The notes under the pieces were generated by a model. That model did not search any database, had not been told where the DNA came from, and saw only the letters and a program-made list of their open reading frames with translations. A program made the translations under genes and the position numbers. From a virus: DNA of 22,822 nucleotides. This document shows, piece by piece, positions 948 through 21,515 of this stretch (the first letter of the stretch is position 1; every line of letters begins with the position of its first letter). The DNA is taken from positions 1 through 22,822 of the IMG/VR virus record IMGVR_UViG_3300017971_000785. One strand, written 5' to 3'.

Positions 948-974
948 GAACAGAAGGCAACAAAGAAAGCCAAG
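948..974 (+). repeat. GAACAGAAGG dispersed repeat, copy 1 (degenerate)
   Basis: The + strand reads GAACAGAAGGCAACAAAG followed by AAAGCCAAG. It matches the other copies (10968-10991, 11505-11528, 12631-12658, 15150-15177) through GAACAGAAGG and then loosely through the 9-base GAAGGNAGC repeats. It sits in the short gap between two leftward tail genes and is antisense to them. Confidence 0.5.
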
Positions 975-6151: not shown

Positions 6152-6685
6152 TTCGCCCTCCTGTGGGTTGCGGTCCCGGTTACGCGCCGGAACCAGGGTT
6201 TTGAACATGGGCTTGTTGGTTAGCCCGATGTCCTCGATCGTTATGGGCCGGTACCTGTTCCGGCTCAAATGTTCGAGATCGTTGACGGTCGAAAAAAACT
6301 TGTAGACGGAGCCGATGGCTTTTTTGCCGAGCTCGGTCTTCTCGAGACGCGCCCAGACGCCGCGCTCGCGTTCGGGGACGGCCTCGGAGTTGCGCACCTG
6401 CAGCTCCATGCCCCAGGCGAACGCGGAGCTGTCGCCGTCGGGGTCCTGGGCAAAATGTTCCTTGCCGACGAGGTAGCCCTCCCACTCCGGGTCGGCTTTG
6501 AGGCCGTTGAAATGCTCCATGATCCGGTTGAGCGCGACTTCGTCGATTACCTGGGTGATCTTGACACTCTTTCCGTTGCCGGTTACGGCGATTCCGGGGT
6601 GCTCGCCGACGGGCATAATGTGGTACCACCCGTCGCTGTCCGGGGCTCCCGCACGGTTGAAAACGATATATCCGCGCTGATTCAT
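5651..6685 (-). CDS. Mu gpI-like capsid maturation protease with C-terminal scaffold, 344 aa
   Basis: ATG 6685 is chosen because GGAGGG lies seven bases upstream and ATGA couples it to the previous gene; the open frame upstream of it is the wrong frame of that gene. The N-terminal ~175 residues match the phage I-like protease style: G27-E-H-P-G, VIDEVALNRIMEHF, LVGKEHFAQDPDGDSSAFAWGMELQVR and RGVWARLEKTELGKKAIGSVYKFFS. H77 and a nearby Ser/Asp are plausible catalytic residues. Residues from about 179 onward are charged and helical (TLTKRATDAETERDELKTKVLNREADEFVEKHKAKI), as expected for a scaffold that fills the procapsid and is then degraded. Decoration and capsid genes follow directly. Confidence 0.85.
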   Translation of the reverse strand: MNQRGYIVFNRAGAPDSDGWYHIMPVGEHPGIAVTGNGKSVKITQVIDEVALNRIMEHFNGLKADPEWEGYLVGKEHFAQDPDGDSSAFAWGMELQVRNSEAVPERERGVWARLEKTELGKKAIGSVYKFFSTVNDLEHLSRNRYRPITIEDIGLTNKPMFKTLVPARNRDRNPQEGEMPLLDTLRTLLRKPDASEDEITSEVQRVLNRSVEVDTLTKRATDAETERDELKTKVLNREADEFVEKHKAKIADPEKMKALFVKNREAAEEAIGLVKEPEGKPTRVLNRDDGKPPKNGPTQDNQPTAAEKARVARIHNRAQAIAKAEGISFTQAWNRAKAEEPAEE

Positions 6686-7389
6686 GCTGTTTCCCTCCGG
6701 GAACTGTTTTCTAATCCTTGTGCAAACCCTTGTGCATTCCGTGCATTTTGACGATCGCCCCCTGGGGCGGGTGTTGATACCCCCTGGGGCTTGCGATCGA
6801 TTCTCGCGCGATTTAGAGCGTTGTTTACCGCGTTGGCGGGGTAGCCGTTGAGGCCCGCGCGGCCGGCGGCCTCCTCGATGCGGCAGAGCTTGCGCCAGGC
6901 GGAGCTGGGGGTGACCTCGTCGAAACGGCGGCGCGGATGGTTCAGCAGGTTCATTTCCGGCCAGAGGATCCGGGCGACGGCCTCGGAGCATACGGCCCGC
7001 TTGGGGCTGCGCCGCAAGTGCCAGCCGTAACGCTTGCCGACCCGCTCGAACCACCACATTCCCAGGAGCTGCCAGGCGGCGTAGCCCAGGCGGCCGACGT
7101 GGGCCTGGGCAAGCACGCGCTTGCGCTCGGAAATCTCCGGAGAAAGGTCCAGGCTGCGCCGCGCCCACTTGCGCTTGGGATGCTTCGCCGCCCAATCGAC
7201 AACCTTGCACCACGGCTTGGGGCCGGTGAAGCCGTCGCGAAAGAGGCTCTCGTAGTAGACCGGGGCGCCGTCCTCGAGATCGAAGCCGATGCCCATGTGC
7301 GACCACGGGCCGGTGACGCGCCTGATCAAAGAGGAAAGCAGGCTTTCGCCGCGCGTCCAGAAAAGCCATGTGCCTACGGCTTTGGTCAT
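6682..7389 (-). CDS. Permuted papain-like (YiiX/NlpC-P60-type) hydrolase, 235 aa
   Basis: The product starts MTKAVGTWLFWTRGESLLSSLIRRVTGPWSHMGIGFDLEDGAPVYYESLF. The order His first (H31 in WSHMGIGF), then an acidic residue (E47 in YYESL), then Cys (C134 in AVCSEAVARIL) is that of circularly permuted papain-fold enzymes of the YiiX/NlpC-P60 clan, which cleave amide or ester bonds in lipids or peptidoglycan. The last ~60 residues are Arg/Asn-rich and probably disordered. ATGA links it to the portal upstream and to the protease downstream; GGAGAG lies six bases before the ATG. In Mu this slot holds the head protein gpF, so a role in virion assembly or DNA entry is possible. The catalytic assignment is by motif only. 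Confidence 0.7.
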   Translation of the reverse strand: MTKAVGTWLFWTRGESLLSSLIRRVTGPWSHMGIGFDLEDGAPVYYESLFRDGFTGPKPWCKVVDWAAKHPKRKWARRSLDLSPEISERKRVLAQAHVGRLGYAAWQLLGMWWFERVGKRYGWHLRRSPKRAVCSEAVARILWPEMNLLNHPRRRFDEVTPSSAWRKLCRIEEAAGRAGLNGYPANAVNNALNRARIDRKPQGVSTPAPGGDRQNARNAQGFAQGLENSSRRETA

Positions 7390-9011
7390 GCCTGCTCTCC
7401 GTTCTGATCGGCTCGCAGAGCCGATGCCACAAGTTCTGTGGCAGCCGCTCTCTGAGCGGCTCCCTCGGCATAGCCGTTAAGGAGCGCTGCGCTCATAAGG
7501 TCTTCCAAGACCTGGGCGGTCTCGGGCTCAGCGTTGATGGACTGCAGAAGCTCAGGCAGTTCCACGTCTCGGAAGCGTTCCAGCGCAACACGCAACTCGT
7601 CGGGATCGGCGTCATCGGTGTCGGCCTGGTTGTAGATGGCATTGAGGCGTTCGGCCACGGGCAAAAGCGCCTCGCTTTGCGCCTCGGCAAGCTGGATGCG
7701 GGCGCGCGCCAGCAGCTCTCCGGCGGCGGAATTGTCGCGGTTGCGGGCGCGGGCTCGGTTCGCGGCGGCAGGCGGCGTAGTCTCGTCGCCCTCGGAAATC
7801 AATTCGGTTGTTCCCGCGATTTGCTGAGCTTGCTGACGGTGCCCGAGGATCTTGTAGCCGGTGCGCTCCTGGACGTCCGACGGGTCGAGGATGAAATACT
7901 GCGAAAGGTCTTTGACCTGGGTGACTACCTCGCCCGAGTCCTGCTCCTGTTCCTCCGCCAGGTCGAAGTATGCCAGCACCGGCCGGCCGGGGAAGGCGCG
8001 CTCCAGTATGTAGCGGTCGGCCGTGCGGCGCATAAACGCGCTGATCTTGTTGGCGCGCGAGCGGGCGATCTGTTTAAAGACCTCCATGTGCGCGCCGCCG
8101 GCCAGCGTGCCGCTGCCGCTCTGGGTAAGCATCGTCAGGAGGCCGCCGGTGCCGGCCAATACGAGCTTCTTCGTGAGCCACTCGAGACGGACCTCGAACG
8201 GCTGAGAGCCGCGGGGGGTATCCGCGGCCTTTGCGTCCGAACCGTGCGGCAGGTAACCGGAGCCGCCGGCCGCCACGTCCTCGGCGGCGTCGCGGTATTC
8301 GGCCTCCTTGTCATCGGGCACGTTCTCGGGGCCGACGATGATCCAGGAAGGAATGCCGTAGATCTCGACATAGGCGTCCCAATCCTTCTCGGAGAGATTC
8401 ATCCGCACGAACTTGATCAGCCCGATGCGGTCGATCGGCCGGCGCACCTCGTAAATCATCAAGGCCGGGTTAAAGTTGGCGATGTTGTCCTCGCCCGGCA
8501 GCGACTTGGCGCCGACGCTTTTGGCTTCCGGGTTCCAGACCCAGTCCCCTTTACGGCCGTCGCGCGCGAAGTTCCACTGATCAAGCGGCTCGAGGTGGGC
8601 GATATCGCCGTTGTCGTGCAGGTGCGGCTGCACGTGAGCAAAGCCGCGAAAGGCTGCCATTTCGAAGTGCTCGATCGCCTCGTAGAGATTGTCGATCCGC
8701 CGGTACGCCGCGCGCAGTTTGGCAACCTGGTCTTCGGCCAGGCTTTTGTCGTAGCCTTCCACGTCCTCGGCAACCTGTTTGTAGTTATCGGGCAGCTCGC
8801 AGAGGGCCGCCGTGCGGCGTTCGACCAAGGTCAACAGATCCGGGTCGGTCTGCTCGATGAACTCGTAGGTCCACTGAAGATCCGCATACTCCCCGCGCTG
8901 GCCGGCCTCGAGCAGCGAAATCGCCCGCGCGATCGTCAGCGAACGCAGCGGGTTATACGCATCGCGCCAGCAATTGGTCTGCGCCACAAGCTGCTGTGTG
9001 TTTTTGGCCAT
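7386..9011 (-). CDS. Portal protein, Mu gp29 / DUF935-like, 541 aa
   Basis: The sequence RDAYNPLRSLTIARAISLLEAGQRGEYADLQWTYEFIEQTDPDLLTLVERRTAALCELP is the hallmark N-terminus of Mu gp29-type portals (NPLRgLT.a......G......W..iE..Dp.l...l..R...v..L). Further matches are PLDQWNF, LIKFVRMNLSEKDWDAYVEIYGIPSWIIVGPEN and AGGAHMEVFKQIARSRANKISAFMRRT. A dodecameric ring of this protein would form the DNA entry vertex. The length is slightly above Mu's. It overlaps TerL by one base (TGATG) and the next gene by four. Its last ~25 residues are encoded across three abutting perfect palindromes (7407-7461), possibly a palindromic insertion. Confidence 0.9.
   Translation of the reverse strand: MAKNTQQLVAQTNCWRDAYNPLRSLTIARAISLLEAGQRGEYADLQWTYEFIEQTDPDLLTLVERRTAALCELPDNYKQVAEDVEGYDKSLAEDQVAKLRAAYRRIDNLYEAIEHFEMAAFRGFAHVQPHLHDNGDIAHLEPLDQWNFARDGRKGDWVWNPEAKSVGAKSLPGEDNIANFNPALMIYEVRRPIDRIGLIKFVRMNLSEKDWDAYVEIYGIPSWIIVGPENVPDDKEAEYRDAAEDVAAGGSGYLPHGSDAKAADTPRGSQPFEVRLEWLTKKLVLAGTGGLLTMLTQSGSGTLAGGAHMEVFKQIARSRANKISAFMRRTADRYILERAFPGRPVLAYFDLAEEQEQDSGEVVTQVKDLSQYFILDPSDVQERTGYKILGHRQQAQQIAGTTELISEGDETTPPAAANRARARNRDNSAAGELLARARIQLAEAQSEALLPVAERLNAIYNQADTDDADPDELRVALERFRDVELPELLQSINAEPETAQVLEDLMSAALLNGYAEGAAQRAAATELVASALRADQNGEQA
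7407..7461. repeat. Three back-to-back perfect palindromes (REP-like) in the portal 3' end
   Basis: The palindromes are ATCGGCTC-GCA-GAGCCGAT (7407-7425), TGCCACA-AGTTC-TGTGGCA (7425-7443) and AGCCGCTC-TCT-GAGCGGCT (7443-7461). Neighbouring elements share their boundary base. Bases 7437-7462 match the intergenic repeat at 17972-17997 at 23 of 26 positions. Here the element is read as the C-terminal coding region of the portal and ends just upstream of the next gene's start. Confidence 0.85.
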
Positions 9012-10423
9012 CAGGCAAACACCTTCCGTTTGCGGCGTTCTATCACGGCCCGCGCGCGCCGGCCGCGCTCGAAGGCGTGGGGAATAAAGAACGATTCATT
9101 CGACGGTGCCCCGGCATGCACCGCCAGGGCCAGGGCCCAGAAGCGGTCGGCGTGGCCGTTCTTGCCGCGGTCGGCGGTAAAGCGGATGTTGCCGGCGGCG
9201 GTGGTTTCCTTCTTGATGGCGCGCAGATCCGCGCGGACGGGGTCGTCGTTGGGGATGCGGATGGACTTGTCTTCGAAGGCCGCGCGGACGGGGTAAGCCA
9301 GCTCTTCCTTGATCGGCTGCGTGAAGTTGACCGCCTCGACCTTGTAGGCGCGGAACCGCTGCTGTGCGCGCTCGGCGAATTGTCGCCCGAGTCCCGTGTT
9401 GTCGATGCAACAGCGGCGGACCTGCGGCAGCGCGAGCAACGGATAAAGCTCTTTTTCCTGCTCGTCGAAGGTGCGGTTCTGCATGCAGATAACGCGCCGC
9501 GTAAAATGCACGCCGCCCACCTTCTCGGTCAGCCAGATCACGGTCAGGTCGTGATCGCGCCCCACGTCGACGCCAATGTATAGCGGGTTCTTGGCGTCCT
9601 CGAGATCGGCCCAGGTCCACTCCCATGGCTGGTCGAGCTTGTACTCGCAGGAGGCAATCAGGTCGTAAGACAGAAACGCGGCCTTGTCGTCGGAAGGCAC
9701 GCACATGTACTCCTGAAGGAACGTTTCCTCGTCCGGGCACCCGGCGCGAATGAAGTCGAAATACGCCGCCTCGTCCATGGCCTGGCGTTCGTCGTCTTCG
9801 GGCAGCTTGGCCTTGAGCTTGTCGAGAAAGCCCTGGTCGAGCGCGTCCTGGAGAGTGACCGTGTGAAGAGAAAAGCCTTTCGGGTTGCCCTTGTGCTTTA
9901 CCTCCTGGACCAGCTCGTTGAAGTGGTTGGCGCTGCCGCGGTGGGTGGAGATGATCGCAAGCGTGCCGCCCCAGGTGATGCCGGGATAGGCGATGGCGTA
10001 GAGCTTGCGGTTGTCGGGATTGAGGGCGTACTCGTCGAGCTTGCGGTTGCCGCGCTTGCCGGCCTGGGCGTCCGGGTTGGAACTCATGGAGTGGATCCGC
10101 CGCCCATTGTCGAACTGCAAAACGTAAGCGTTGGTCTTGGCCTCGTCGTCAAGCACCTGCTGGCCAAGGTCTTTTGCGGCCAGGTGCAGTATGCCTGCAA
10201 AGGCGCTGCAGTCCTCGAGATAGAGCCTTGCCTGGATGATGTCGCGCGAGGAAATCCACGTGTCGTAGCGCGCGCCTTCGGGGGACGTGATCGTGACGTC
10301 CTCGTAGGCGCTGGCCCAGGAGATCCCGATCTGGCGCGATTTCTCCATGAGCTTCAGGCGCGAGCGGTCTCTGATCCAGCCGCCCTGGTACGGCAAAAAG
10401 AATTTTTCGTCGGCCTTGGTCAT
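9011..10423 (-). CDS. terL: Terminase large subunit, Mu gp28-like, 470 aa
   Basis: This is the ATP-driven packaging motor and headful nuclease. The N-terminal ATPase shows an FLPYQ..WI.D adenine-binding segment, a Walker A variant KSRQIGIS (R30-S35), a Walker B-like RKLDEYAL and the coupling motif IISTHRGS. The C-terminal RNase H-like nuclease has its three acidic residues in place: D286 (IGVDVGRDHD), D341 (CIDNTGLG) and D426 (GHADRFWALALAVHA). The length is somewhat below Mu gp28. ATGA overlap with TerS and a one-base overlap with the portal show tight coupling. All core motifs are intact. Confidence 0.92.
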   Translation of the reverse strand: MTKADEKFFLPYQGGWIRDRSRLKLMEKSRQIGISWASAYEDVTITSPEGARYDTWISSRDIIQARLYLEDCSAFAGILHLAAKDLGQQVLDDEAKTNAYVLQFDNGRRIHSMSSNPDAQAGKRGNRKLDEYALNPDNRKLYAIAYPGITWGGTLAIISTHRGSANHFNELVQEVKHKGNPKGFSLHTVTLQDALDQGFLDKLKAKLPEDDERQAMDEAAYFDFIRAGCPDEETFLQEYMCVPSDDKAAFLSYDLIASCEYKLDQPWEWTWADLEDAKNPLYIGVDVGRDHDLTVIWLTEKVGGVHFTRRVICMQNRTFDEQEKELYPLLALPQVRRCCIDNTGLGRQFAERAQQRFRAYKVEAVNFTQPIKEELAYPVRAAFEDKSIRIPNDDPVRADLRAIKKETTAAGNIRFTADRGKNGHADRFWALALAVHAGAPSNESFFIPHAFERGRRARAVIERRKRKVFA

Positions 10424-10959: not shown

Positions 10960-10967
10960 TTCGCTAC

Positions 10968-10991
10968 CTTCGCTGCCTTCTGTTCAGATTC
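10968..10991 (-). repeat. GAACAGAAGG dispersed repeat, copy 2 (abuts terS start)
   Basis: On the - strand it reads GAATCTGAACAGAAGG-C-AGCGAAG, continuing into GTAGCGAAG and the GTG start of the small terminase gene. It is identical to copy 3 (11505-11528) at 23 of 24 positions and in the same orientation; the two copies bracket the exported protein gene 11052-11486. Confidence 0.8.
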
Positions 10992-11000
10992 TTAATGCCC

Positions 11001-11031
11001 TGGGGCAGCGGCCGGGCCAGCCGCTGCCCCA
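11001..11031 (-). terminator. GC-rich hairpin after exported protein gene
   Basis: TGGGGCAGCGGC and GCCGCTGCCCCA form a perfect 12-bp inverted repeat around a 7-base loop. It lies between the stop of the exported protein gene (11052) and the small terminase start. There is no U-tract, so complete termination is doubtful. It is similar in design to the hairpin after the other exported protein gene (3307-3333). Confidence 0.45.
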
Positions 11032-11486: not shown

Positions 11487-11504
11487 TTTCTTCTCCTTGG
11501 TTTG

Positions 11505-11528
11505 CTTCGCTTCCTTCTGTTCAGATTC
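11505..11528 (-). repeat. GAACAGAAGG dispersed repeat, copy 3
   Basis: On the - strand it reads GAATCTGAACAGAAGG-A-AGCGAAG, 23 of 24 identical to copy 2. It lies 18 bases upstream of the ATG of the exported protein gene and immediately after the stop of the winged-helix gene. Confidence 0.8.
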
Positions 11529-12603: not shown

Positions 12604-12939
12604 GCGACACCTCCGGAGGGAGTGGGAATTGAACAGAAGGCAGCGAAGGGAGCGAAGGGGGATTGAGAAAGGGCGGGAGCAACGCGCCGGCCGACGGTGA
12701 GACCGGTTATGCGTCTGCGGCAACGAGGGCGGAACAACTTCCCTCGTGCTCCCGTCGCGCTTTGCAGCGCGAGCCGCCGGGGACCGGGTTGGGGTATGAT
12801 AAGGGATTGCGCGTGCGGTTACATGACGACCTCCGCTGACGATTGCAGTTGCACAATTCACGCGGGCAGATTAGCCCACGCGTGTTAAAGGCAGGTAATT
12901 CTGAGCGGATCCAGCGGAATAAAAAAGGCTCGGCGCCAG
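12604..12939. other. Intergenic, palindrome-rich region upstream of the late operon
   Basis: No convincing gene lies here. It holds repeat copy 4 (12631-12658), the inverted repeat ACGAGGG/CCCTCGT (12723-12747), the perfect hairpin TCGCGCT-TTGC-AGCGCGA (12755-12772) and a bulged hairpin CACGCG-GGC/GCC-CA-CGCGTG (12859-12884). A late promoter reading leftward is expected somewhere here, since the upstream unit ends in a terminator-like structure, but I cannot identify one with confidence. Confidence 0.6.
12631..12658 (+). repeat. GAACAGAAGG dispersed repeat, copy 4
   Basis: It reads GAACAGAAGGCAGCGAAG then GGAGCGAAGG on the + strand, i.e. 9-base GAAGGNAGC units in tandem. It lies upstream of the lipoprotein gene and in antisense orientation to it. 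Confidence 0.8.
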
Positions 12940-15143: not shown

Positions 15144-15878
15144 ATGACCGAACAGAAGGCAGCGAAGGAAGCAAAGGCGATCGAGCCGGAGGTTCTGCCG
15201 GCGGAGCCGGCCGAGACAAAGCCGGCCAGGCGGGCGAACATCCTGGCGATCGCGCCGGAGCGGAGTCTTCCGGAGCGCGCGACGGTGATCGTCGACTATC
15301 ACAACGCGGCGATGACGGCCTATGCCCAGAGCGCGATGTATGCGCTCCTCTGCGGGTTTGAGCTGCATGCGGCCCGCGCGCAGATCGCGCATGGCCAATG
15401 GATCCCGTGGGTCGAGGAGCACTGCCCGTTCGACCGTACTACCGCCTGGCGGTACATGGAGGCGGCCAAGCGGAAATTCAAGGAGCTGCCAAATGTTGCA
15501 CGCGTTCAACATTTCGCCCTGGGGGTGTCGCCCCTGGAATTGCCGGCGGATCGGCGCGCGGAGCTGATTGAGGCGGTCAAGCAAGCCACGGACGGCCAGA
15601 CATGGACACAGCTCGGGCTTGAGCTCGGAGTCATCAAGCAGCCCAAGACCGGCTACCAGAAATACCACCCGCGCAAGAATTTGACTGCCGAGGAGCAGGA
15701 ATCGGCCATCCGCGCGGCCGTCGGCAAGTCGTGGCACGATTTGCTCCGCAGCCTCCAGATGCATGGCATCGACGAGTGCACCTGGGGCTATCTGTCGGAT
15801 GTCGAGAAAGAAGTCGTCGTCGGCCTGCTTGACGAGGTTTCCAAGACGATCAAGAAGGCGCTGAGGGGGAAGAAATAA
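15144..15878 (+). CDS. DUF3102-like early protein, 244 aa
   Basis: Residues ~65-110 (YALLCGFELHAARAQIAHGQWIPWVEEHCPFDRTTAWRYMEAAKRKFKEL) match the DUF3102 core: 'G..L..ar....hG.w..wle......rtA.rYM..a'. This region is found in phage and plasmid proteins that may act in DNA binding or partition. A second helical region follows (LTAEEQESAIRAAVGKSWHDLLRSLQMHGIDECTWGYLSDVEKEVVVGLLDEVSKTIKKAL). The first residues, MTEQKAAKEAKAIEPE, are encoded by a copy of the GAACAGAAGG repeat. It sits directly before the transposase with a TAATG overlap and may be a transposition accessory protein, by context. Confidence 0.75.
   Translation: MTEQKAAKEAKAIEPEVLPAEPAETKPARRANILAIAPERSLPERATVIVDYHNAAMTAYAQSAMYALLCGFELHAARAQIAHGQWIPWVEEHCPFDRTTAWRYMEAAKRKFKELPNVARVQHFALGVSPLELPADRRAELIEAVKQATDGQTWTQLGLELGVIKQPKTGYQKYHPRKNLTAEEQESAIRAAVGKSWHDLLRSLQMHGIDECTWGYLSDVEKEVVVGLLDEVSKTIKKALRGKK
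15150..15177 (+). repeat. GAACAGAAGG dispersed repeat, copy 5 (coding)
   Basis: It reads GAACAGAAGGCAGCGAAG then GAAGCAAAGG. It lies inside the 5' end of the DUF3102-like gene and encodes EQKAAKEAK, so either the repeat was taken into the reading frame or the true start lies farther downstream. Confidence 0.75.
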
Positions 15879-17965
15879 TGGACTATACAATCCCGGCGGA
15901 TGAGGTGCCCGAGCTTTGTACGTTGCCCGATGACGTACAGCAGGACGTTCGCCTGGCGCTGCGGGTGCTTTCGCGCATAGACAGCACTGCAAAGGGCGTG
16001 CAGGCGCGTATCAGGACCGAGGCAAGAGCCCTGCACGGCAAGCGCGGTTTTAGTGTGGCCAGCATCAACCGCAAGCGCTCTCTATATAAGGATAGCCGGG
16101 GCGATTGGCGCGTGCTGGTAGACGGCGCGCGGGCGCCGCAGTTTGCCGGCCCGACGCTGCCGCCGGAGTTTGTGGAGTTCTGGAAAGGCCTGGTCGACGA
16201 GAACCACCGCAAGTGCCGGCCGGCCTGGCGCAAGCTGGTGCGCCTCTGGCACGCGGGCGAGCCGGTCCCAGGCTACGGGGCCTGGCCGGAGTGGTTCCTC
16301 AAAGCCCACCGCGGCCGGTCGCTGCCGCGCTCCTGCCCGCCGGATCTGCCGCAGGGCTGGAGCTATCGCAACCTGATGCGCTTCAAGCCCGCGACGGCCG
16401 AGCGCGCGCTTACGCAGCGCGGAGTGAACGCAGCGCGCCTCGAGCTGCCGACGGTGATCGGCACGCGCGAGGGCTTGAGGTTCATGGAGTGGGTCGTGCT
16501 GGACGACTGGCGCAGCGACTTTCGCGTGGTGGATCCGCGCGCGCAGAAGGCGGTGCAGCTCAACGGAATCCTGGCGCTGGACGTAGCCTGCGCGCTGGCA
16601 ATGCGTTTCGTCGTGCGGCCGGCTGTGCCCCAGGAGGACGGCACGGAGGAGGGCCTCAAGCGGCGCGACGCCAAGGCGGTGATCGCCGGGATCCTGCTGA
16701 CCTACGGATATCCGCTCGACTACATCTGCAACATTATCGTGGAGCGCGGCACGGCGACGATCTCTCCGGATGACGCCGCGGCGATCGAGGAGGCTACCGG
16801 CGGCCAGGTCAAGATCCACTATACATCTATGATCTCCGGCTCGGTCTTCGGCTATGCCGACCGGCCCCTGGGGAACTTCCTGGGCAAGGCGTGGCTGGAG
16901 AGCTACTTTAACCTGACCCACAACGAGGCCGCCGACCTGCCCGGCCAGATCGGCGCGCGCTACGACCTGGCGCCGCAGTCCACCGAGATGAAGATGCGCG
17001 AGGCTGCCGCCCTGGTAAAGGCGGGTCAATTCCTGCCGCCGGAGGCCCGGCGCGAGCTGGCGTATCCTTTCCTGGACACGAACGAAGCGCGCATTTCCCT
17101 GGAGCATATCTTCCGGCGTCTGAACAACCGCGTCGAGCACGAGCTCGAGGGGTTCGAGCGGGTTATGGAGTGGCGCGAGGCCCGGCTGGAACAGTGGCGG
17201 CCGGCGCCCGAGGCCCTGGGCATGCCGCGCGAGGTGCAGGACCTGCTGGAGTGGCGCACACGTTCGGAAACGCCCTGGGAGCGCTACGAGCGCATGGCGC
17301 GCGAGGCCAGGTTCGAGAAGCTGCATTTTGCCTGCATGCCGCGCATCCTGGAGGAACATAAGCGCGTGTCGATCGATAAGCCCGGCGAGCTGCGCCTGAC
17401 GATCCGCGGCAAGGCGCGGGTCTACCAGGATCTCGACAACGCCGCGCTGGAGGCCGGCGCAGAATTCCTGGCCTATTACGACGGCGCCGATCCGGACTGG
17501 ATCCACCTCACCGACGGCCGCGGCAGATACGTGGCCAGCGTGCGCGAGGCAAAGGGCGTGCGCCGCGGCGACCACGAAGCGCTGGCCGAGGCCATCCGCG
17601 CCAAGCAGGCGCAGCTCAACCGCACGCTGACCGCCGTAGAAAAGCGCAACGCCCCGCGCCTGGCCGGGCGCCTGCAAGCGATCGAGCACAACCAGCGCCT
17701 GCTGGACGAGGCCACCGCCGACGAAGAGGCCATCAATCTTGTGCCGGCCGCCGCCGGCGGGGCCGGAGAAGCGCCGGTATTCGTGCGAGCGATCGACGCC
17801 GTTGCCCACGCTCAAGCCGACATTGCCGAGCAGACCCGCCGCACGCGCGAACGCATTGCCGGCACGCGCGGCTCGCTCGACGACGTCCTCGGCCCCGCGC
17901 CCGTTGCCGTTGGCGCCGCGGCCGATGACGAAGACGATCTCTCGGAACTGGACCAGATGCTCTAA
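15878..17965 (+). CDS. MuA-like DDE transposase, 695 aa
   Basis: The protein carries out strand transfer for integration and replicative transposition. N-terminal DNA-binding segments (about 1-200) precede the rve-type core. D209/D210 in WVVLDDWRSDFRVVD are the first acidic residues. NIIVERGTATIS supplies the second position as E289 instead of Asp. E341 in LGNFLGKAWLESYFNLTHNEAADLPGQIG is the final Glu, corresponding to 'kp.vErxF' in MuA. A beta-rich region follows (ELRLTIRGKARVYQDLDNA..FLAYYDGADPDWIHLTDGRGRYVASV), then a helical C-terminus with an acidic end (DDEDDLSELDQML), as in proteins that contact MuB and ClpX. Length is close to MuA. AGGGGGA precedes the start, which overlaps the upstream stop. 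Confidence 0.88.
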   Translation: MDYTIPADEVPELCTLPDDVQQDVRLALRVLSRIDSTAKGVQARIRTEARALHGKRGFSVASINRKRSLYKDSRGDWRVLVDGARAPQFAGPTLPPEFVEFWKGLVDENHRKCRPAWRKLVRLWHAGEPVPGYGAWPEWFLKAHRGRSLPRSCPPDLPQGWSYRNLMRFKPATAERALTQRGVNAARLELPTVIGTREGLRFMEWVVLDDWRSDFRVVDPRAQKAVQLNGILALDVACALAMRFVVRPAVPQEDGTEEGLKRRDAKAVIAGILLTYGYPLDYICNIIVERGTATISPDDAAAIEEATGGQVKIHYTSMISGSVFGYADRPLGNFLGKAWLESYFNLTHNEAADLPGQIGARYDLAPQSTEMKMREAAALVKAGQFLPPEARRELAYPFLDTNEARISLEHIFRRLNNRVEHELEGFERVMEWREARLEQWRPAPEALGMPREVQDLLEWRTRSETPWERYERMAREARFEKLHFACMPRILEEHKRVSIDKPGELRLTIRGKARVYQDLDNAALEAGAEFLAYYDGADPDWIHLTDGRGRYVASVREAKGVRRGDHEALAEAIRAKQAQLNRTLTAVEKRNAPRLAGRLQAIEHNQRLLDEATADEEAINLVPAAAGGAGEAPVFVRAIDAVAHAQADIAEQTRRTRERIAGTRGSLDDVLGPAPVAVGAAADDEDDLSELDQML

Positions 17966-17971
17966 CAACAC

Positions 17972-17997
17972 TGTAGCAGCCGCTTTTTGAGCGGCTC
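17972..17997. repeat. REP-like palindrome between transposase and ATPase genes
   Basis: AGCCGCT-TTTTG-AGCGGCT (17978-17996) within a 26-base block that matches 7437-7462 at 23 positions. It is intergenic here; with no U-tract, it is not a convincing terminator, and the operon appears to continue. Confidence 0.75.
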
Positions 17998-18012: not shown

Positions 18013-19065
18013 ATGACAGACCAGGCTATCGATCAGACGCTCGAACAGCAGGGCAACACGCCGCGGGCGACGTGGCCCTTCGGCGGCGACCACGTAATGC
18101 AGGCCACCGCCAGGATGAAGCCCGCGCATCGCGACGCCGTGCGGTGGTTCTTCTTCCACTGCATCGAACAGGACCTCACGATGGACGACGCCTCGCGCGC
18201 CATCCACTACGACCGCACCACGATCTACCGCGTCTGCCGCGGCGAGTATAAGGCGGACCTTGCCAAGGTGGTCGATGCCATCCGCTCCTGGAAGAAGATC
18301 TGCGAGCAGCGCGTCGGCATCATCGCAAGCACCTTTGTCGAGACCGCCACCGCCCGGAAGATCTGGAAGGTGTGCGACGCCGCCGTGGCCTATAACTCCA
18401 TTGCCTTCATCTTCGGCGACTCCCAGATCGGCAAGACCTGGGCACTCGAGGAATACGCCCGCCGACACAACCACGGCCAGACGCGCTATATCCGCATGGC
18501 GGCCAGCTCGGGCACGCAGCTTATGATGAAGCTCCTGGCCGAGGCCTGCGGCTTTAGCTCGAGGGGCTGCTTCGAGAACCTGCGCAGCCGGGTGCTCAAA
18601 GCGCTCGACGAGAACACTCTGGTGATCGTCGACGAGCTGCACCTGGCGTTCTTCACGTATCACAAGCAGGCGCGGCTTTCCTGCCTGGAGGTCCTGCGCG
18701 AGCTGCACGACCGCACGAAGTGCCCGATGGTGCTCTGCGGTACCAATGTCGCCAGCGAAGAAATCAACCGCGGCCCGCAGAAGGAGTATCTTGAACAGCT
18801 CCGGCGGCGCGGGGTCTTCAAGCTGCAGCTCCCGAAGTACGCCACGCAGAGCGACCTCAACGCCATTGCAAAGTCCTTCGGCCTTGCCGCGCCTGATGGC
18901 GACGCCGCCGAGCTCGTCAAGCAGATCATCCGCGCCAACGGGCTCAAGGCCTATGTCTCGTATCTCCAGGCCGCCAACCGCATGGCCGCCAACACCAAGA
19001 AGACAATCTCCTGGAAGCACTTCATCCAGGCTCACGACGTGATCGCAAAACTCAGCGCAGCATAA
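18013..19065 (+). CDS. MuB-like AAA ATPase, target-capture protein, 350 aa
   Basis: An N-terminal HTH-like part (HRDAVRWFFFHCIEQDLTMDDASRAIHYDRTTIYRVCRGEYKADLAKVVDAI) is followed by an AAA+ core. Walker A is GDSQIGKTW (K141), Walker B is LVIVDELH (D207, E208), and sensor 1 is MVLCGTN (N245). Arginine-rich LEQLRRRGVFKLQLP and a C-terminal helical lid (AAELVKQIIRANGLKAYVSYLQAANRMAA) complete the fold. MuB binds DNA as an ATP-dependent filament, delivers target DNA and activates MuA; gene order right after the transposase matches. GAAAGGGGACCGA precedes the ATG. All ATPase residues appear intact. Confidence 0.88.
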   Translation: MTDQAIDQTLEQQGNTPRATWPFGGDHVMQATARMKPAHRDAVRWFFFHCIEQDLTMDDASRAIHYDRTTIYRVCRGEYKADLAKVVDAIRSWKKICEQRVGIIASTFVETATARKIWKVCDAAVAYNSIAFIFGDSQIGKTWALEEYARRHNHGQTRYIRMAASSGTQLMMKLLAEACGFSSRGCFENLRSRVLKALDENTLVIVDELHLAFFTYHKQARLSCLEVLRELHDRTKCPMVLCGTNVASEEINRGPQKEYLEQLRRRGVFKLQLPKYATQSDLNAIAKSFGLAAPDGDAAELVKQIIRANGLKAYVSYLQAANRMAANTKKTISWKHFIQAHDVIAKLSAA

Positions 19066-20379: not shown

Positions 20380-20664
20380 ATGCGGAATTGGCGTAAATGG
20401 CGGGAGGGTGAAAAGCTGCGCAGCCAACGGGCCAGCTATGCGGCACAGTGCCGCTGGGCGCGGCATCACGCGGATGCGCCCAAAAGGGATGCGCGTAGAA
20501 TCGTGATTGAAATCCGCGATACCCATCGGCCAACACAATTGATACGCGCCGAGCAATGCGAAACCACCGATGGCCGCTGGAGCAGGTGGAGAATTGCGGG
20601 TTGCGGTTGCAGACCCGTCGCAGCGACGGGGCTGGCGCGGTTGATTGCGGAGGCCGTAAAATGA
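20380..20664 (+). CDS. Small Arg/Trp-rich protein coupled to radical SAM gene, 94 aa
   Basis: The product MRNWRKWREGEKLRSQRASYAAQCRWARHHADAPKRDARRIVIEIRDTHRPTQLIRAEQCETTDGRWSRWRIAGCGCRPVAATGLARLIAEAVK has a basic helical N-terminus, then a strand-rich part (RIVIEIRDTH...WSRWRIAG). C-G-C near the end and two other Cys could bind metal, but the spacing does not match a known motif. Its TGA overlaps the ATG of the radical SAM gene (ATGA), so the two are translated together. There is no clear Shine-Dalgarno. No family is recognised; coding is supported by codon character and coupling. Confidence 0.55.
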   Translation: MRNWRKWREGEKLRSQRASYAAQCRWARHHADAPKRDARRIVIEIRDTHRPTQLIRAEQCETTDGRWSRWRIAGCGCRPVAATGLARLIAEAVK

Positions 20665-21515
20665 GGATTCTTTACCGCACAACCGGCCGGGCCGCGGAGT
20701 ATGCGCCGTATAGCGCCAACCTTTATACGACGTGCCCTTATGCCTGCGACTACTGCTATGTGCCGAGCACTCCGCCCTTTCGAACAAAGGGTCTGACCGC
20801 CGCCGACTTCCACGCGCCCCCGCGCCTCAAACCCGGCGCGATCGCGCAGCTTCGCAAGGAGCTCAGGCGCCACTGGCCGTGCACGGGCCACGTGCTCTTT
20901 TCTTTCGGCTGCGACCCATACGCCGCCGGCCCGGACGGCAAGCGCCCGCTTGCCACGCGCGAGGCTCTCTTCGAGTGCGGCCTGGCCGGCGCCAAGGTGG
21001 CCATGCTTACCAAGGGCGGGCTGCAGGCCAAGCTGGACTTCGACCTCTATCAGTACGACTGGTGGTTCGGCGAGACGGTCGTGTTTGTGGACGACGACAA
21101 GATGTCGTACCCCGACTGTGCCAACTGCCCGAAAAACGACGGCGTGTGCCTGGGCGATGACAATTGCCCGATGGGCGGATGGGAGCCCTACGCCGCGAGC
21201 TTTGCCGATCGTGAGGCCGCCTTGCAGATCGCCCGCGACAATGGCATCCACACCTGGGTCAGTCTCGAGCCGGTTGTCTATACGTCTCAGGCCCTGGAGG
21301 TAATCGACCGCCTGCTGCCCTGGGTGGACCACTGGAAGATCGGCAAGCTCAACGCCCGCAAGCCCGAACATAAGCGGATAGAACAGTCCCAGGACTGGCC
21401 GAAGTTCCTGGCCGATGCGCGCAAGCTTCTTTCCTCTTATATAGAGGACGGCGATCCCGGCGAATTTCGCCCCAACACCTACTACGTCAAACAGAGCCTC
21501 TTGAAAGCCGCGTAA
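20661..21515 (+). CDS. Radical SAM enzyme, spore-photoproduct-lyase-like style, 284 aa
   Basis: ATG 20661 is chosen because GGAGG lies seven bases upstream; the extra upstream residues of the open frame belong to another gene. YSANLYTTCPYACDYCYVPSTPPF carries the 4Fe-4S motif C25-x3-C29-x2-C32. Then come FSFGCDPYAAG, TKGGLQAKLDFDLY and, near the end, VSLEPVVYTSQALEVIDRLLPWVDHWKIGKLN, strands typical of the partial TIM barrel. A second Cys cluster lies at C153-x2-C156-x6-C163-x5-C169 (CANCPKNDGVCLGDDNC), possibly an auxiliary metal site. The reaction is unknown; DNA or nucleotide modification, or repair, is plausible for a phage. Confidence 0.8.
   Translation: MRILYRTTGRAAEYAPYSANLYTTCPYACDYCYVPSTPPFRTKGLTAADFHAPPRLKPGAIAQLRKELRRHWPCTGHVLFSFGCDPYAAGPDGKRPLATREALFECGLAGAKVAMLTKGGLQAKLDFDLYQYDWWFGETVVFVDDDKMSYPDCANCPKNDGVCLGDDNCPMGGWEPYAASFADREAALQIARDNGIHTWVSLEPVVYTSQALEVIDRLLPWVDHWKIGKLNARKPEHKRIEQSQDWPKFLADARKLLSSYIEDGDPGEFRPNTYYVKQSLLKAA

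Follow-up and report, generated by a model that had tools for sequence, protein, structure and literature searches.

A probable REP dimer near the 3' end of a Mu-type portal gene

A Mu-like phage very probably carries, inserted close to the 3' end of the portal gene, a 57-nt, tail-to-tail dimer of REP elements of the GTAG superfamily, a GTGG-headed, REPIN-like doublet that has become coding sequence, and a singlet of the same family lies elsewhere in the same genome. Their assignment to the GTAG superfamily follows from the head motif and the arrangement of stem and loop. Elements of this kind are known; what is unusual is where these ones sit. Throughout, the window denotes the whole stretch of viral DNA that we analysed (22,822 nt; positions 1 to 22,822 of IMG/VR record IMGVR_UViG_3300017971_000785).

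Three perfect palindromes (8+3+8 at 7407-7425, 7+5+7 at 7425-7443 and 8+3+8 at 7443-7461) abut one another in the final 25 codons of the portal ORF (7386-9011, minus strand; Pfam Portal_Mu, 1.2e-28), exactly at the coordinates given in the preliminary description of this DNA. Their positions and perfection thus stand, but the palindromes are not three separate elements: according to a repeat finder, the trio is a single inverted pair of 26-nt units spanning 57 nt. The two arms, unit a (TGTGGCATCGGCTCTGCGAGCCGATC, 7406-7431, minus strand) and unit b (TGTGGCAGCCGCTCTCTGAGCGGCTC, 7437-7462, plus strand), are 77% complementary and lie in opposite orientation, their heads facing each other across a 5-nt spacer, AGTTC (7432-7436). 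Each has a TGTGGC head followed by a perfect hairpin of 8 bp that closes on a 3-nt loop; the middle palindrome is just the paired heads of the two units, and the differences between a and b are paired changes that preserve the stem. The 26-base block at 7437-7462 recurs with 23 of 26 identical positions at 17972-17997, as had been described; this copy, unit c (TGTAGCAGCCGCTTTTTGAGCGGCTC, plus strand), is a singlet with a TGTAGC head and a 7-bp stem with a 5-nt loop. All three units, the only ones in the window, share one layout from 5' to 3', namely a GTRG head (GTGG in a and b, GTAG in c), a single base and then the hairpin. On folding, single-stranded DNA and mRNA alike form three hairpins.

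The dimer contributes about 19 of the last 27 codons of the portal, with the predicted in-frame peptide GAAQRAAATELVASALRAD (19 codons), and has the conserved portal tail on one side and, directly after it, the GGAG stretch belonging to the next gene (6682-7389, minus strand) on the other; the ATG of that gene overlaps the portal stop. Unit c sits between a MuA-like transposase gene upstream (15878-17965, plus strand; phrog_310 transposase, 1.5e-11) and a MuB-like AAA ATPase gene downstream (18013-19065, plus strand; AAA_22, 1e-14; TniB, 3.5e-10). Single-protein searches of viral contigs with MuA and MuB gave no matches, nor did an Rfam search. We ruled out a reading of the REP element as a transcription terminator, as it has no T-run.

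Several other features of the window deserve mention in their own right. A 12-bp perfect hairpin at 11001-11031 (TGGGGCAGCGGC-CGGGCCA-GCCGCTGCCCCA), between two minus-strand genes, is possibly a terminator. A second dispersed repeat, GAACAGAAGGCAGCGAAGG, is non-palindromic and present in five copies with at most 3 mismatches, where none is expected by chance (948-966(+), 10967-10985(-), 11504-11522(-), 12631-12649(+) and 15150-15168(+)); several of these are found at gene borders or starts. The early region holds a radical-SAM-like gene (20556-21515; phrog_13321), whose Pfam match (6.2e-6) scores 26.9 bits, below the cut-off of 29.5.

Chance and codon usage

Palindromes could in principle arise by chance where ordinary sequence encodes a variable, alanine-rich portal tail, the likeness to the copy at 17972 being coincidental, yet we consider this highly improbable. 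Among 300 shuffles of the window under a first-order Markov model, not one had three such palindromes grouped within 65 bp. Overall the window is not rich in them: it has 9 whose arms measure at least 7 and whose loops measure 3-5, compared with 6.8 in the shuffles. When the 27 tail residues were recoded synonymously with the codon usage of the phage, three palindromes appeared in only 70 of 200,000 trials. Moreover, the trio is accompanied by an intergenic copy: the consensus unit has 4 matches in the window at up to 3 mismatches, one of them being the reverse strand of unit b, against an expectation of 0.03. The codons of the insert are likewise atypical, with a codon adaptation of 0.25 compared with a mean of 0.71, a value equally low in just 17 of 2926 overlapping windows, and include several that are rare in the phage (GCT three times, AGA, CGA and GGA). 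What speaks for chance is that two related portal tails, L062 (AEGAAARGGTS) and L003 (AAGAARHAAPEEQE), are alanine-rich and contain GAAxR-like runs, both without palindromes, and that a REP-like match to a degenerate unit in the tail gene of another IMG/VR phage contig (L088, position 4791) encodes the same peptide as the window, VASALRAD; we took this match to be probable chance coding and set it aside. Against it stand also the extra length of the window's portal relative to all close relatives and the occurrence of the same dimer between genes of a bacterial chromosome, both described below.

As a separate observation, codon usage is also very atypical (0.18) over the final 20 codons of the gene downstream of the portal (6682-6750), perhaps through another insertion or a frame extension.

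Portal tails of relatives and the MuA-MuB gap

The closest portals found share 57% (L062), 54-56% (L002) and 53% (L003 and L004) identity with that of the window, and the palindromes are absent from their tails. After the conserved AAL.NG.A motif they end 16 (L062), 15 (L002) and 13 (L003 and L004) codons earlier, and the tails of portal relatives overall are 13-21 codons shorter than the window's. The comparison of C-termini thus points to an insertion. The best candidate for an empty site is the tail of L089, a portal with 45% identity over nearly its full length, whose genome shares its class with a Verrucomicrobia MAG considered below (G002). There, MSAALVNGAAE-EEQA aligns with MSAALLNGYAE-GAAQRAAATELVASALRADQN-GEQA in the window, leaving 21 extra residues between AE and GEQA relative to the L089 tail, AEEEQA. 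Deleting the 57-nt dimer and joining its flanks yields the in-frame MSAALLNGYAEENGEQA, that is, AEENGEQA.

Because identity to the nearest portal relatives is no higher than 45-57%, the boundaries of the proposed insertion are inexact, and the left one is uncertain because a similar GAA.R run occurs in L062 and L003. Part of the peptide of unit b could therefore be native, in which case the net gain would be 13-16 codons, not 19-21. A comparable difference is seen at unit c. From the MuA stop to the MuB start there are 24 nt in L086 (the full record of L062, the best relative) and 47 nt in the window, the extra length being accounted for by unit c. Taken together, shorter and palindrome-free tails in relatives, a dimer in a bacterial chromosome and atypical codons bear out the proposal that a REP-like element landed in frame and is now coding.

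Related elements in bacteria and other phages

A pattern scan over 84,980 genomes returned eight matches, two of which (L013 and L009) we judged real; the other six (L008, L010, L011, L012, L014 and L015) were set aside as they look like chance matches. The first, in the MAG of Verrucomicrobia bacterium KR13_Ju.mb.40 (G002), reads AATCGGCTCATAGAGCCGATGCTACA-24 nt-TGTAGCAGCCGCTCTATTAGCGGCT. It has the same two unit types as the window in the same order and orientation, with a spacer of 24 nt instead of 5 nt, and this two-unit dimer, ATCGGCTC/AGCCGCTC, common to the window and the MAG (L013/L031), is intergenic in the chromosome. With a copy at 17972-17997 and the same dimer in a bacterial chromosome, the element is indeed a dispersed one, as the preliminary description had it. 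Contigs C56 and C14 of G002 carry additional dimers, one hairpin of the C14 dimer being interrupted, and the genome has about 7 units in all. The second real match lies in an Acidobacteria MAG (G001) and represents a closely related family, GTAGCGGCCGCTCTnnGAGCGGCC, with about 20 copies (22 pattern matches, compared with 4 for a reversed control pattern).

Single relatives were found in G373 (TGTGGCATCGGCTCTGTGAGCCGAT, one base off unit a) and G401, both from the order to which G002 belongs, and in G308, from the same phylum. The strict unit pattern occurs in 3 of 387 Verrucomicrobiota genomes, which indicates a low copy number and, like the small number of units in the window, speaks against our reading. 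Portal relatives are present in 35 of 116 genomes in the class of G002, and G401 carries one as well (54%). Given these REP relatives and the common portal relatives, a host among the Verrucomicrobiota is plausible.

Among named phages and plasmids, the dimer had no match, nor did the portal among phages, and the strict unit pattern had no match in IMG/VR. One IMG/VR match to the dimer pattern (L049) was rejected for having no hairpins. In the L088 phage contig, a REP-like sequence, GTAGCCGCGGGCTTTAGCCCGCG, is located at 10053-10075, shortly past the end of a tail gene (10035), and there may therefore be more than one case of phage-borne REP-like elements.

Discussion

Relation to known elements

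The GTAG REPs, whose heads-inside dimers are named TT, were defined by Di Nocera et al. 2013 (PMC3733652), who include GTRG and GTGG variants in the family and describe GTGG heads in the verrucomicrobial Opitutus terrae (GTAG-20), where many REPs are intragenic. The elements of the window resemble them in their GTRG head outside the hairpin, stem of 6-13 bp, short loop, TT dimers and unit size (26 nt, within 20-40 bp), as well as in their sites at gene 3' ends or inside genes, intragenic dimers in that work encoding 20-30 residues. In bacterial chromosomes, the same inverted dimer is seen in G002, and repetition of a related family in G001. The case differs in residing in a phage genome at few copies, and we place it in the superfamily, not in one of the 24 named families. 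REPINs, described by Bertels and Rainey 2011 (PMC3116915) as inverted REP doublets that replicate as a whole and of which singlets are remnants, are similar in having two inverted REPs with a spacer, a predicted fold and singlets beside doublets, while the window's spacer measures only 5 nt and its doublet is known from one phage record. The layout also recalls the 23-nt REP cut by the RAYT of S. maltophilia, which has GTAG, an 8-bp perfect palindrome and a 3-nt loop (PMC8266576), though in another organism and with a GTGG head in two of the window's three units; the likeness is one of layout.

The parallel with Rickettsia palindromic elements drawn in the preliminary description is apt as an analogy, both being palindromic repeats in frame inside an ORF (here with a predicted translation), but probably not as a family assignment. 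The intragenic CGTC repeats of R. conorii have been equated with RPE-4 and RPE-6 (PMC3733652), whereas the window has a GTRG head and the layout of GTAG REPs; this comparison was made by description. A different link between phages and REPs is known from transposable phages of Pseudomonas, with REP-like sequences at integration hotspots (PMC5977238). We found no description of REPs or REPINs inside phage genes in the literature searched, which was mostly without subscription papers.

Possible effect on the portal transcript

Could the hairpins be an RNA element evolved by the phage itself, one that tunes coupling to the next gene or protects the upstream mRNA and that was either selected where it stands or retained once inserted? 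The mRNA is predicted to fold into three hairpins (-45.8 kcal/mol, z -4.6), an outer stem of which contains the next start codon, the GGAG/ATGA overlap lies directly downstream, and REPs are frequent at the 3' ends of genes and believed to function at the RNA level (PMC3733652). On the other hand, relatives have the same gene overlap after the portal without the hairpins, which are hence not required, and a DNA-level head motif with chromosomal copies fits a mobile element and not local RNA evolution. We regard such an origin as quite unlikely. An RNA role may nonetheless be a secondary effect of the dimer, which may influence translational coupling or mRNA decay. The simplest view of its effect is a tolerated insertion, since the insert is a multiple of three and open in five of six frames, and the length of the portal tail varies among relatives.

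Proposed origin and mobilisation

Under our preferred reading, an inserted REP dimer, the elements would come from a host chromosome, plausibly of the Verrucomicrobiota or another carrier of this REP family, and a host-encoded RAYT (Y1/HUH) would move them in trans as single-stranded hairpins while the phage was replicating or lysogenic. The dimer would have inserted near the portal 3' end and then been read as in-frame codons. The insertions would persist given a variable tail length and an insert that is a multiple of three and stop-free in that frame, the downstream ribosome-binding stretch also being intact after both insertions.

Y1 transposase genes do occur in genomes that carry this REP family. 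Of 10 genomes from the order of G002, 9 have Y1_Tnp genes, with REPs of other families or none beside them. Four such loci in that order (L055, L056, L058 and L113), where several GTAG hairpins from other families surround the Y1 transposase genes, are candidate REPtrons. Among the RAYT-type loci of this order, we found no cognate RAYT for the REP family of the window, nor did we find a Y1_Tnp or RAYT transposase gene in the window itself. Because the REPs beside Y1 genes belong to other families, mobilisation by a host RAYT is what we infer from the REP family of the dimer. A conserved CT cleavage dinucleotide beside the head, which we sought among the units, is not universal and was not used as evidence.

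Instead of being moved by a RAYT, the dimer might have entered through recombination with a host locus or within a larger MITE whose core it forms and which has its own terminal repeats. In G002, two dimers are enclosed by terminal inverted repeats of 18-25 nt (AGAGCTTGTCCGTAA...; L031 1470-1604 on C225 and L025 1477-1633 on C14) and may be viewed as MITE-like composites, which, like the lack of a RAYT in the window, would suit such a route. Neither the window dimer nor unit c has terminal repeats around it, however, and the extra length in both the portal and the MuA-MuB gap approximates that of the REP alone, so that we hold this route to be unlikely.

Implications

REPs have been described as chromosomal repeats; here, a dimer occupies a phage portal gene, contributing some 19 codons to a protein needed by the virion, and a singlet occupies the transposition operon. 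This offers a concrete setting in which a RAYT could act in trans on a phage, whether incoming or resident, and in which a phage could spread REPs. More speculatively, and with considerable doubt on our part, Mu-like phages might ferry host REP dimers between bacteria, the RAYT of one host depositing REPs in phage genes, where some become protein, and the phage delivering them to new chromosomes. If true, phage carriage would explain the scattered occurrence of one REP family in unrelated phyla.
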